From contig NC_086354.1 of assembly GCF_036324505.1 (NCBI RefSeq), positions 7,782,795-7,846,794 on the forward strand: a stretch of DNA of 64,000 bases, read 5' to 3'. The notes under the pieces were generated by a model. That model made no database searches and had not been told where the DNA came from. It saw only the letters and a program-made list of their open reading frames with translations. The stretch comes from Eleginops maclovinus. Lineage: Eukaryota > Chordata > Actinopteri > Perciformes > Eleginopidae. Numbering within the stretch: position 1 is the first letter of the stretch; each line of letters opens with the position of its first letter. Positions 549 through 18,974 of the stretch are shown piece after piece. The position numbers were made by a program, and so were the translations under genes.

Positions 549-4767
<4,219 letters not shown>

Positions 4768-6900
4768 GGTTTCTCTCTAAGATAATGTAGATGTACTTGC
4801 AGTTTCAGTAAGAAAAAATGATGGATAAAAACTAAACACTTTGGTGTAAGTATGAAGAACCCCTTCCAATCCGCGTCACCCAGAAGAGAGCAAGACCAAC
4901 TCTTGCATCCACCTTATTAAAAACTGCACATGGGTAACTGGCAGTGGGGCGCAGATTGCAAGAGGGTTGGCCTTAGCTTGACATAGGTGTATGTCTATGT
5001 GGGGTGCAATCGGGACACAGGGGGGGTGTGCAGGGGGGGGGGGGGGGGGGCTGTGGTTTCTGGGGTGACAGCTTTGTGTGCACTTCGGTGCGTGTTGCAG
5101 ACCTGTAAAAGTGGGTGGAGTCAGAAGATGAGGACCAACCTGCTCTCTTTCCATGAGAACAGAATAAGGTGGAGGTGGAGGGAGGTGGTGCAAAAGCAAG
5201 ATGTAAAGAGAAAAAGAGGGATGTGTTTGCCTTTCTGCTCTGCGCCAACTGAAGAAACTGTGACCTGATGGGTTCAAAGGAGCCTGCAAATATGAGGCAC
5301 TCTTTTCCCATATTAAGTCTAGATGGAGGCTTGAATCCCAGCTAAAAATAATGGATGTAGGACAGAGAAGTACATATCAGGAGTGGGTGTTGGTTTCTAA
5401 TTTGCTGCTGCTGCTGGCACCAATGCAGTGCTAGAATGTGTTGCTGGGTCACCCTGGGACATGAAGACAGGAGAGGGTGGTTCACTTGCTGAGGATTCAC
5501 TGCATAGGTGTCACTTAGCCCTGACTCAAGAAGAAAGTGAAACATAGGGTTTTAAGGTGGGGGCCATGTGGCAATATTTTGTATCTTTTTGAGTCGGATC
5601 CCTCTGTACGTACAGTATGCCTGTCCAATGTGTACAGCACGTATGATGATTTGATATTACTTTACAGATTGAAAGGGAGGAGGTAAGCTATAAATAAATA
5701 CAGGCCACATGGTAACGTTATCCTCCTTCAGACCCTCGAAAAAACACACGTAGCTTGAACACCACACCCCTCTTTCTGTAGCATGACATGCAGCCCATGC
5801 AATATTAAAGCAGAATGGGAGTTTAAGGGAGTTGTTGAAAGCTGTATGTTTAATTTTAGGGAGTTGACTGTATGTGCACGGCAGTCATGGTAGGAGGAGG
5901 TGGTATGCATTTACAGTACGTGTGGTTTCAATGACCACTGAGGCTCACTGTGGCACTGTCAACAAATAATAAAATGGTGTGATAGAGTTCATAACAGCTT
6001 CATAACCATTTTCTGAATGTAAAGGCCTTACATGTTCAGATTATTGTACAATGGGCCCCTGGACACAGATTTGCAAAATGCCCCACCAACACGACTTCAT
6101 AAAAGCACAATTCACAGACTTTACAGTTCAATCAGGAGAAACTTCATTCGGAGGGAAAATTATTATTTCTTGCCATGTATACATGTATTTTTTCAACATT
6201 AAAACATGATACTGTAGAAGCGCAAAATACAATTATGAAACCTGAAAATGAGCGTAAAAGTGCCCATTTAAGTTCAAATGTAATAGCAACGAATGTGTAC
6301 CTCAAAATCTAAACTTTAAAGGTAAAGATTGTCCTATAAAATAACATGAATGTGTTTGATATAATGAATTTGAACAATGTGTCATACACCTGGAGACTCT
6401 TATGTGATTACTTGACGATAACACAGAGTTTAATTTCCGTTAGTCATGTCTGCAGCAGTTACCTCTACTGCTCAGTAGATGATGCTGTTTAAAATAAAAT
6501 CTCTTACCCTGCCACTATAATCTTACATGTTGATACTGTTTAATGAAGTATTGAATATTGAATACTGAGGTTTGATACTGGTCAGCTTTACAGTATTGCA
6601 AGCTTTTATTTGTTTGACCGTTACATCTTCAGTGTTTGGCTCTATTTTATATGCAGCCTATGAAAATCACCATGTTTCTATAGCACATGTATGCTACCGT
6701 GTAATTTACATTAATTTCCGGTGAAACCAGTTGTAGCCATTAATGTTCAACACTTTTGACAATGTCCATAAACTTGAGACAAGGCAGGTCAAAGGGTGAC
6801 CAGAGGAGGGCGGTGCTAACGCAACAACCTTTCATAATACATTTTGGGAACAGCCCACTGATTGAAATCGTTTAACGGAAGGTTTAGGTTGAAGCACACT
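4768..6900. other. Intergenic / upstream region of casq1 and selenoj
   Basis: No exon is recognised here. The stretch lies between two divergent genes (casq1 minus, selenoj plus), so promoters of both are expected within it, but no convincing core element was identified. It contains an 18-base G run at about 5033-5050, which is prone to sequencing error and G-quadruplex formation. Open frames at 4876-5311 are low-complexity (Pro/His-rich) and match no family. Confidence 0.6.
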
Positions 6901-9900
6901 GCAGTTTGACCTGGCTATCAGTATCAGTATAACGTGACATTAAACGGAGTTTAAGGTAAGACTTCACAATGTCAGCCTAGTGTTGCCAAAGACTAGCTAA
7001 CGTTAGCTTGGAGTCTGCAGTGTCTGAAGTTACCGCTATCTCTGCTAACTCTGCCTAGGCCACTGTTGTACTTAGGCATAATAGAAGGCTAAACAATGTT
7101 GCATTAAAGTCAGGCTAAAGTTTACTTAACATATCTTTGTCAAGCAACTACCGCTAGCTTTAGCATCCAATCTGTACAGATACACATTCAGGGAAACTAG
7201 TAGATTGCAGATGACCTCAAACTGTAATGTTTGACTTAATTGATTACAAATTTGAGACATACCCTATACACATTAACAACAGGGCTGGAACTAACAACAC
7301 ATGTAACTCAAGACAAGTCTATTGGTTATTCTAAGGAACAAAATTAAAAGACGCTCAATTTCATTGAGCTCAATGTGAGATATGTATGCAAATGTATTTC
7401 CAGTCCATAACCTCAAAGATATTCAGTTTACATTACCAGATATAAGTAGCTAAGATGACACATTACAAAAGCTAGAACAAATACTTTACTTTTTAAGTAA
7501 CCATTTCCGCCAGCGTGTTTTCTATTGATTGATTTTATAGACAGATAAGCCTTACTGTAATTATAATAATAACAATTGTTTTACAGATGGCTGCAGCTCT
7601 GTCCAACAGAGCGATAGGAGCCATCGTGGGATCAGCCGTTGCAGATGCAGCAGGTAATAATGGTGAAGGTCTATCATACTGTTATGTTTTATTGTCTGTT
7701 TTGTATTCAGTACAGTCTTAATTTACAATTGGTTTCCTTGTCATACCACCATTTGTGCTGATGTTTCTTTTCTCTATCATCTGAGTCTTTTCCCTAAGCA
7801 CCATTTTTATTCTTAAAATGCCAGTTTATTTCAAGGAGTTTCGGATCAGAATGATATTGACCTGTAGTATTTTCCCTTTCAGCGCAGCCCCTCCACTGGG
7901 TCTATGACCTGCAGAAGCTGCAGGGGATCCTGGCTCAGGAGCCAAACCCTGAGTTCCGCGCTGAGTCAGCCAACCCTTTCTACAGAAGGTCGACGGGCCA
8001 GCAGAGCTGCTACGGAGACCAGGCCTTTGTCCTGCTGGAGTCCTTGTCTGAATGTGGAGGTAGGCCTAATTCACCATCTTAAAGACCCGATACACTGCTT
8101 CACGATCACTTCAAACTTTTACATGATGTTCTAAGCTGTGTAAACTTTATGACCAGGTCTAAATGTTGAAGATCTGAAGCAACGCACTCTGAAATTCTTT
8201 GGGCCAGGATCAGAGTATGACACACCTGTGAACGACCCCTACAGAGACAAAGGAGGTAGGAAAACCATCCAGTTACTGCAGAAAAATGTATCAAACTCCT
8301 TTACTCTGTAAATTGGGATTACTAATGACATTGTGTTTGTCCAACAGGCCCAAGACCTCAGCTGCCCATCGAGGGACCATGGAGACAAGGGAGTTTGAAG
8401 AGCTTCCTGAAGAATGTTGATGCAGGCAAAGAAGAAACAGGTGAATATGGTTATTTTCATTCAAGACTCAAATGAGTGAAATAGCTCTAAATGATGAGTA
8501 TTTTTTTCCATAGGATGTGAGAACGACTGCCAGATTGATGGAATAGCCAAACTGGCTCCTGTAGTGGCTTTTTATGCCGGAAAGCCTGACATGCTGGAGA
8601 AGGTGGAGCAGGCAGTCCGTGTCACTCAGAACAATGATGAGTGTGTGGCAGAGACTCTCGCAGCTGCGAGGTCAGTATGTTCTCTCTAACGCATCATTTT
8701 CACTACTGATGAGAATACTGGTCATTTCTAAAACAAGGATGTGAAACAAATATTAAATAGCAAAATAATTCAGACTTTATTTCTATTGGAAGACACCACA
8801 GGTGCGAAGACATTTTACTATTAAATTCACTTACTCAATCCAGTAGAAATGTGTTCTGGTAAACAAAAAATGAATCTGTGATGATGGAATAAACACCTTT
8901 TTTTATGGAGAATATTTATAGTATGTGAATATAATTATTGTGCACGTTCCTAAAATCTTTTGACATATCTCAAGTTCAAATGTCTCTGTTTATCTTCTTT
9001 ACCTTTCTATGCTTTCAAAATACAGGCAAAAATAACCTGAAAAACACTTTATGAAAATATATAAACAATCTTAATGAATTGAGTCGGCAACAAATATAAT
9101 AAAGGTCTCCACTGCCTGAGTTAAATTCCAAACATTTCCTAATTTTAAAATGTTGCTGTTGATTAGCATTAACTTTTGGACATTCGTTGAGTTATCAAAC
9201 ATCTCATCAGCAACTGTCTTGCAATATCACTGTGAATGCTACAGAGCATAACTTTCAACATGGTTTCAAACCTAAAACATAAACTAGACTTAAATGTAGT
9301 TATTAATTGCTTAATTTTATATTATAAAACATGCTCAACCTTAAATTGGTTTCTAAAAGGTCATCATTTATTTTTCCAGGATCCTGGAGCATTTCATCCT
9401 GAACGGTCCCGATCCAAAAGCCTTGGACTCAGTGCTGGCTCAGCTCAGTGACCCGAACAGAAAGCAGCCTCAGGATCTGGACAAAGCAGTCATTGGTATG
9501 TGAGGCCTGCAGCATTGTTGCTTCACTACACTAAAGTCATGGGACTGAGTCACAGGATTAAAGGGATTCATCATTTTGTACAAGTTTCATATCCTGAATA
9601 CATACTGTGTTAAATTATTTGATTTAACTCAATCCTTACCATCTACAGATAGACACTTTCCAAAAAGTTAGTTTTATGTCTCTTTAAGGTTGAAAAGTTT
9701 ATTGTATCTGAGTAACTATAAGATGAATTCTCTAAAACACTTCATCCCTGGCTAGCAGAGAACTTTAGGCTTCATAGTTTCCTTAGTTTCTCCTTTATTT
9801 TGGCCAAACTCATCTCTGTTTTTCCCTTTCAATGATCCTAATTTGTTTTTCAATATTGTGCTTTATCTTAAAGAATGCAACTACTTTGCACACTTTCTAA

Positions 9901-11192
9901 TGTATATAGAATATACTGTCTTATATTTATATTTTGTTAGTAGCAGGATGGTCTCTCATAGTGTCATTTCTCTTATTCTGTATATTTTATATTGTATATT
10001 CAATTTATTTAGGCTATAGGTATTATATCTTTATTCTGTTCATATGTTAATATGTGGTTAATAAAATTCCTTGTTACCATGCTGCTGTTTCCCAACCTTT
10101 GATCAATAAGTGAAACTGATCCAATGACTTCCTTTCTGATTGGTTCCAGGTCACCTTCGTCAGGTGAAGGAGAATCTATCCAAGACTCCTAAGGAACTGA
10201 TCCCCAGTGTGTTTCCAAACACATGAGGTATTCAGAAAGTTCTTTTTAACATATTACATTAGAATGTCATACTTTATAATCAAACATTAGACATCTTATA
10301 CTCCCTGTAACTCATTAATCTGTGGTTTTACTGTTCTACATAAGATAAGATCGATAGGGAAATCCAAGTGTCATAAAAGCAACAGATCAAGAGTGAACAG
10401 TAAACATGTAATTAACCCATGAATAATCAAACCAAATAAGCTTGGTTGCTGAAAGTAGTAGTAGAGGAATATTGGGACAACCAGTTCCAATGCCTTTATG
10501 TTATTAACACATGGTGCTGATTTTCTCTCAGGTTTGCCTGGTGCGTTCCAAGCAGCGCTGCATGGGGTCCTGACAGCCAAGCTCTACGAGCAGGCCATCA
10601 GAGATACCATGAGCTGCGGGGGGTGCACCTGTAGCAGAGGCTCTTTCATCGGAGCCTGTCTCGGAGCTCAGGTATGACTGTTTGCTAATCTCACATTTGA
10701 TTTATTTAAATGTGGTAAGCTATGGCAACATTCTCAAATGAAATAGGGAAGCAGCTTTTGAACTCTACTTTTGGGTCCAAACAATATACATTTACAGAGT
10801 AACAAAACATGCCATATATGCACATCTCACACGGAGAAACGTTCAGAAAGACAGATATTCTAAAATCTTGTCACACTGTAATCTCTTCTACATTGCCACA
10901 GATTGGATTCGAGGGAATTCCAGCTTCCTGGACATCCAGAACTCTGCGTTATCAGTCTACGTTGGAGCACGCCAAGAAGATAACCAAGCAACACCAGTAG
11001 TTACTCTTTTTTTGGCTGGGTAATGTGATGTGCAGGTGGCTAAGAACAAAATGAAAAACTGTTGAGCTTTCACAGAGCAGTGTATGAAGGTTCTTGTTTA
11101 AACGATTGGATGGCAGGAGCTGGATGTTTTGTCTCTGATAAAGTTAAACATGTTGGTTCAGATGTTCAGAAGCCGAGTTTTTCTGCAATAAA
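6900..11192 (+). CDS. selenoj: Selenoprotein J (ADP-ribosylglycohydrolase / J1-crystallin family) with in-frame UGA
   Basis: SelJ is a selenoprotein family known from ray-finned fishes and a few invertebrates, related to ADP-ribosylglycohydrolases and jellyfish J1-crystallins; its reaction is not firmly known. A non-coding exon ends at 6955. Coding exons: 7587-7653, 7883-8059, 8157-8255, 8348-8440, 8514-8670, 9380-9495, 10150-10227, 10532-10671, 10902-11000, giving 341 residues with all phases matching. Motifs: GSAVADAAAQPLHWVYD near the N-terminus, YGDQAFVLLESL, and GSFIGACLGAQIGFEGIP near the C-terminus, positions where true hydrolases carry Mg-binding Asp clusters that look degenerate here. 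Codon 262 is TGA (10224-10226), within VFPNT-U-GLPGAFQAAL, one base before the intron donor; the frame and family similarity resume in the next exon, so it is read as selenocysteine. A polyadenylation signal AATAAA lies at 11187-11192. The alternative, a recently inactivated Cys form, is less likely. Confidence 0.9.
10224..10226 (+). other. selenoj: Selenocysteine codon (TGA, Sec262) of selenoj
   Basis: TGA is in frame between VFPNT and GLPGAFQAALHGVL. Splicing 10227 to 10532 joins phase 1 to phase 2 and keeps the frame open for about 80 further family-like residues to TAG at 10998-11000. Such conserved downstream coding sequence is what a recoded UGA predicts. Confidence 0.85.
11084..11139 (+). 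promoter_or_regulatory. Candidate SECIS element in the selenoj 3' UTR (weak)
   Basis: The order and spacing of core motifs fit a SECIS: ATGA at 11084-11087, AAA at 11100-11102 (12 nt later) and TGAT at 11136-11139. It lies about 85 nt after the stop and before the polyadenylation signal, the only place a SECIS could be in a short UTR. By hand the predicted helix pairing is poor, so the exact position is uncertain; a SECIS is inferred mainly because the TGA needs one. Confidence 0.3.

Positions 11193-12405: not shown

Positions 12406-18974
<6,569 letters not shown>

Follow-up and report, generated by a model that had tools for sequence, protein, structure and literature searches.

Does a TGA lying in frame one base ahead of a splice donor end a protein, or is it read as selenocysteine (Sec), and if so, what would the resulting protein do? 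The question is raised by a gene in the window, the 64,000-nucleotide stretch of Eleginops maclovinus DNA analysed here, which a first-pass annotation had named selenoprotein J (SELENOJ, or SelJ). That identity is borne out by full-length homology to SelJ and by a match of residues 11–317 to the Pfam family ADP_ribosyl_GH (2.7e-43, 149.1 bits). We hold with high confidence that the gene is SELENOJ (also crystallin J1A in databases), that it is intact and very probably functional, and that its UGA is recoded; this confidence covers the gene and the recoding and does not extend to its inferred function. Possession of SelJ is ordinary for a bony fish and the family is already known. Cysteines at the positions of hydrolase metal ligands offer a concrete and testable idea of what SelJ does, as a redox enzyme or as a crystallin.

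Gene structure

The SelJ gene occupies 7587–11000 on the forward strand and has nine coding exons that encode 341 residues, from the ATG at 7587–7589 to the TAG at 10998–11000. Coding exons 1–6 lie at 7587–7653, 7883–8059, 8157–8255, 8348–8440, 8514–8670 and 9380–9495. Exon 7, the Sec exon (10150–10227, 78 nt, phase 1-1), is joined with the frame kept to exon 8 (10532–10671) and then to exon 9 (10902–11000). All eight introns are GT...AG, and the TGA is the sole interruption of the reading frame. It lies at 10224–10226, where it is codon 262, and is followed by one base (G) and then the GT donor, just as the first-pass annotation had placed it; the gene model and the relatives both lead to its reading as Sec. 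The claim that the exons past the TGA keep frame and family similarity also holds, with exons 8 and 9 open to the TAG. What had been called the exon 8–9 junction is real in the gene model, but it joins coding exons 7 and 8, and the earlier numbering fits on condition that a single noncoding exon is added at the 5′ end. At least one such exon ahead of coding exon 1 is likely because the ATG sits directly on an AG acceptor; a donor-like site (AAG/GTAAGA) is found upstream near 6955. An AATAAA polyadenylation-type signal at 11187–11192 follows a candidate selenocysteine insertion sequence (SECIS) at 11073–11137 in the 3′ UTR.

Relatives and database annotation

A protein search found 303 relatives, of which the best 120 were classed; all named species are ray-finned fishes, and many entries carry the names selenoprotein J or crystallin J1A, J1B and J1C. 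Listed fish SelJ entries share 62–87% identity over 99–100% of the window protein, and among the best 120 the nearest relatives reach 95% over about the first 261 residues. The UGA at the same place, the SECIS candidate and the fold of the ADP-ribosylhydrolase (ARH) type are likewise shared with the family, and no feature was found that distinguishes the window copy. In a tree it groups with Dissostichus and Chaenocephalus (support 0.66). Castellano et al. (2005) is reportedly the reference for selenoprotein J.

Scanning bacterial and archaeal genomes with a SelJ profile gave 26 pattern matches and no relatives among them. The phylogenetic distribution of SelJ is less narrow than had been proposed. 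Excerpts of the literature that treat SelJ as an established family (PMC3316567, PMC3473315, PMC2397514, PMC2375036) include its presence in amphioxus (PMC3473315), and algal SELENOJ occurs with Sec or Cys, one sequence having two Sec (PMC7539508, excerpt). In addition, selenoj appears in PMC11489432 only as an item of an expression table, and the main text of PMC10298544 makes no mention of SelJ.

At codon 262 the listed fish relatives have a stop, a Cys, or a codon deleted by the gene model. Among the best 120 of 303, 40 stop exactly ahead of the codon (to which P0096 may be added by eye), 15 have Cys, and 56 keep the exon 8 motif SFIGAC with the end of exon 7 skipped, removed or replaced. 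The remaining nine are P0096, six frame-slipped entries (P0035, P0051, P0093, P0116, P0119 and P0120) and two without the residue. Downstream exons are present without residue 262 in P0066 and P0097, and P0027 and P0052 join both sides of the junction with the residue absent. In P0035, P0057, P0093 and P0120 a slipped frame crosses the junction, and back-reading by eye gives residues that fit TGAG plus the next exon. Where the exon 7–8 junction is intact (14 rows among the best 120 of 303), the residue is Cys in all 14.

The expectation that automated annotation would truncate the protein or skip the exon is thus borne out by the 40 truncated entries and by 18 of the best 120 that skip exon 7 cleanly. 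Failure of gene finders on SelJ is already in print. According to excerpts of PMC12822975, fewer than 1% of Ensembl genes are well annotated in three families, of which SELENOJ is one; RefSeq, which runs a dedicated pipeline, has 77% of vertebrate selenoproteins right, fish-specific families being no worse. The window gene illustrates this mishandling.

The cysteine rows (P0007–P0009, P0011–P0020, P0030 and P0068, among the best 120 of 303) are all salmonid where named (13 of 15); P0016 and P0019 come from short contigs. The letter U is absent from all of the best 120, so that Sec written as C by databases must be considered. Rainbow trout P0068 runs on past the Cys codon into an apparent intron, and the frames in the contigs of P0016 and P0019 run to full length, as they could not with a stop there. 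These observations argue against such a writing habit and make it likely that Sec was replaced by Cys on the salmonid branch. The esociforms Umbra and Dallia (P0107, P0111) still terminate before codon 262. Among the papers brought up by literature searches, none was recognised as describing this salmonid change.

A paralogue with the same codon

The same genome (606 Mb in 27 contigs) carries further ARH-like genes, one of which is a SelJ paralogue (L009 1296–5957, G000:C21) with nine exons, matching phases, and GT-AG introns at matching places. Its exon lengths equal those of SelJ save in exons 2 and 9, and its 344 residues include a TGA at codon 263, homologous to SelJ codon 262. It is SelJ2, which was named from medaka and stickleback (PMC3316567, excerpt). 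Another 18 rows join it in the tree (support 1.0), among them Merluccius, Seriola, Oreochromis and Pogonophryne; because this grouping holds other fishes, SelJ2 is wider than medaka and stickleback. The pairing of the paralogue with Pogonophryne (support 0.99), together with the place of the window SelJ in the tree, points to a fish that is probably notothenioid-like. Between SelJ and SelJ2, dN and dS are 0.214 and 1.695 before the Sec codon and 0.292 and 1.432 after it (dN/dS about 0.2 downstream), ratios that are rough because dS is near saturation. The comparison indicates that the exons past the Sec codon are under purifying selection. A SECIS candidate in the SelJ2 3′ UTR (6067–6131) is weaker than that of SelJ, with 15.6 bits to SECIS_1 (E 7.8) and chance-like folding (z −0.70).

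SECIS candidate and proposed decoding of the UGA

The SECIS candidate of the window gene begins 73 nt 3′ of the stop codon and comprises UAUGA, a 10-bp helix II, an AAA apical motif, GA on the 3′ side, and helix I. The first-pass annotation had looked to the 3′ UTR for a SECIS, and a full-length match to Rfam SECIS_1 does lie at 11073–11137, but at 17.0 bits it is under the gathering score of 35. Its E value is 1.2 for 303 bases and 4227 families, or by our own estimate about 3e-4 for a single family (1.2 over the family count). Comparison of the whole window with Rfam at the gathering threshold returned nothing, and the SECIS surfaces only with the e-value option. Every core part is present at its expected place; by our own reading the last pair of the quartet is atypical. 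In a strict pattern scan of both strands of the window only two sites emerged, with scores of 22.5 (11073–11137) and 12.0, and the candidate's score was equalled by 3 of 20,000 shuffled UTRs. A looser scan gave 115 sites, in which the candidate ranked second (22.5 vs 23.0 for the top site, which lies at 13329 within the adjacent gene). Folding energy is mildly low (z −1.58; equalled by 15 of 200 shuffles). It is improbable, as judged from these pattern scores, that a SECIS-like hairpin would stand at that place by chance, and we read the candidate as a real but unusual SECIS that is not one by the Rfam threshold.

In the decoding that we propose, the ribosome would recode UGA codon 262 as Sec with the aid of this hairpin, 73 nt past the true stop, to yield a 341-residue protein with an ADP-ribosylglycohydrolase fold. 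For the window species we infer Sec insertion; in zebrafish sbp2 mutants, Selenoj protein drops (PMC8881744, excerpt).

Three other accounts of the TGA can be weighed against recoding. The one that survives best, which we still consider unlikely, is a regulated, Sec-free isoform of 315 residues that skips exon 7 and is made alongside the Sec form, such as when selenium is low. Skipping would be frame-neutral because the exon has 78 nt and phases 1-1, and the 18 clean skips among the best 120 of 303 include three entries named isoform X2 (P0067, P0078 and P0080). Gene finders that avoid a TGA are, however, expected to yield such skips, and almost 22% of Ensembl selenoprotein-gene transcripts skip the Sec exon or its relevant part (PMC12822975, excerpt). 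Nor is the symmetry of exon 7 special, because exons 2, 3 and 4 share its phases. Far less credible is a true stop, with a 261-residue protein and downstream exons that are leftovers or 3′ UTR. The entries ending exactly at codon 262 agree with it, as do 15 of the 19 rows (among the best 120 of 303) whose sole source is lgn or jgi/lgn contigs; these 15 have 261–262 residues. Against this stand the purifying selection on the downstream exons relative to SelJ2, read with the caution that dS near saturation imposes, their many invariant family columns, the full-length named salmonid entries with Cys, and the SECIS candidate; the shortened protein would, in the models, be without the last helices of the fold. 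A decaying pseudogene, for which the internal stop codon might speak, deserves almost no credence given a single stop at a codon where relatives have a stop or Cys, splice sites that are all intact, a 341-residue frame, and conservation relative to SelJ2.

The former hydrolase pocket

Recoding as Sec leaves the role of the protein to be considered. Homology of ARH1–3 to SelJ has been stated (PMC9087173, excerpt), and SelJ shares with ARH3 and DraG both the fold and a C-terminal GG motif. A fold search with a model of the salmon Cys form matched 66 solved chains (E ≤ 0.001), ARH3 and DraG among them, with TM-scores by query of 0.57–0.69 among the 50 of 66 matches listed. Unlike ARH3, SelJ lacks the four metal-binding Asp. 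In human ARH3 the metal ligands are Thr76, Asp77, Asp78, Asp314, Asp316 and Thr317 (PMC8141533, excerpt), and these align with SelJ S64, C65, Y66, C294, C296 and S297. Exon 2 thus has S64 C65 Y66 G67 D68 where ARHs have a T/S-D-D-T cluster, and in exon 8, which carries C291, C294, C296 and S297, GGCTCS replaces GGDTDT. The degeneracy of the hydrolase Asp clusters suspected by the first-pass annotation is therefore real: three of the four metal Asp have become Cys (C65, C294 and C296) and the fourth Tyr.

The alignment was drawn from matches to a Thermus ARH and to L010, an ARH3-like gene found elsewhere in this genome. The N-terminal part of the Thermus match is not significant by itself. The N-terminal alignment with L010 is ungapped, with 7 of 28 identities (81 of 100,000 shuffles were as good), and the C-terminal one has 13 of 33 (0 of 100,000). 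Across the best 120 of 303 relatives plus the window protein and SelJ2, C65 is kept in 121 of 122 rows and Y66 in all 122. Among the 72 of these rows with the exon 8 motif, C294 occurs in 71 (the other has a gap), C291 in 65 and C296 in 52; C305 occurs in 72 of 72, a count not used here as the rows were chosen by a motif containing it. The SelJ2 side is a 25-row clade (support 0.81) with 19 motif-bearing rows, in which position 296, unlike that of the window SelJ, is Ala or Ser in 17; C296 is kept in just two, so that not every family member has the full Cys set.

AlphaFold models of the salmon Cys form place C294 and C296 at the start of helix 295–310 and C65 where a helix begins or immediately ahead of it. 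Residue 262 is on a low-confidence loop before helix 264/265–277 (pLDDT <50 at 256–264 and 256–265 with two different alignments), and the closeness of Sec262 to the cysteines is uncertain because the models are uncertain at this loop. In tblastn against fish ARH3 the segment after Sec262 falls on the GNGI motif, which by counting back from the GGD motif contains Asn269-Gly270-Ile271 of human ARH3. These residues line a peptide channel, and changing them left ARH3 activity unaltered (PMC8319183, excerpt). Sec262 probably lies near the old pocket, since the segment that follows it aligns with these channel residues.

A degenerate ARH-like motif (GGPVCQRS) also occurs in mt-SAF23 (PDB 6sga), which we take to be a trypanosome mitoribosome assembly factor; presumably it is without Sec and has a role other than that of SelJ.

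Possible functions

The former pocket, with C65, C294, C296 and possibly Sec262, could form a thiol/selenol site that carries out redox chemistry or binds a ligand or soft metal. Such a site is plausible because Cys occupy three of the ARH3 metal-Asp positions. The fuller proposal is more tentative, and we would put it somewhat below an even chance: SelJ would be an ARH turned selenol/thiol enzyme, in which the Mg-holding Asp gave way to C65 and C294, joined in SelJ1 by C296. Sec262 would sit next to the old substrate channel, on the loop ahead of helix 264–277, and supply the last part of a redox or soft-metal site within what was the catalytic pocket. No discussion of the Asp-to-Cys change in the pocket was found in the excerpts consulted, and this change is the part that merits specialist attention. 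If the thiol/selenol reading is true, the salmonid Cys in place of Sec is a natural comparison.

The first-pass annotation had also considered a structural role. That SelJ is a crystallin-like lens protein with no catalysis is a possibility to which we give limited but real weight. The database names crystallin J1A, J1B and J1C and the lost Asp clusters are in keeping with it, as is a review table that, with Castellano 2005 as its source, places expression of SelJ in the eye lens of some fish species (PMC11591929, excerpt). As a general argument, however, Sec is hard to account for by structure only; the stop or Cys at 262, Cys 65 and Cys 294 are nearly constant among the best 120 of 303, and the Sec of algal SELENOJ (PMC7539508, excerpt) tells the same way. 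We doubt that SelJ is a still-active ADP-ribosylhydrolase with an altered mechanism, despite the fold that it shares with ARH3 and DraG among the 66 solved chains. All four metal-coordinating Asp positions are changed, and human ARH3 D77A, D78A, D314A and D316A have impaired activity on PAR and none on Ser-ADP-ribose (PMC8141533, excerpt). A classical Mg-dependent ADP-ribosylhydrolase is unlikely because three of the metal-binding Asp are replaced by Cys and one by Tyr. The thiol/selenol reading is the one we tentatively prefer.

Neighbouring features

The first exons of an eIF2B epsilon gene (12406–12930, forward strand) adjoin SelJ. The Crenichthys protein P0034 combines an NTP-transferase domain with a SelJ domain, suggesting the same adjacency in a second fish. 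On the reverse strand, the start of a calsequestrin gene (calsequestrin-1) lies at 4530–4767, with Pfam scores of 27.7 and 33.8 bits in two frames. The halves of this exon are in different frames near 4640; misassembly, a variant or decay may account for the frame break. A long (CA)n microsatellite lies around 4000–4130.
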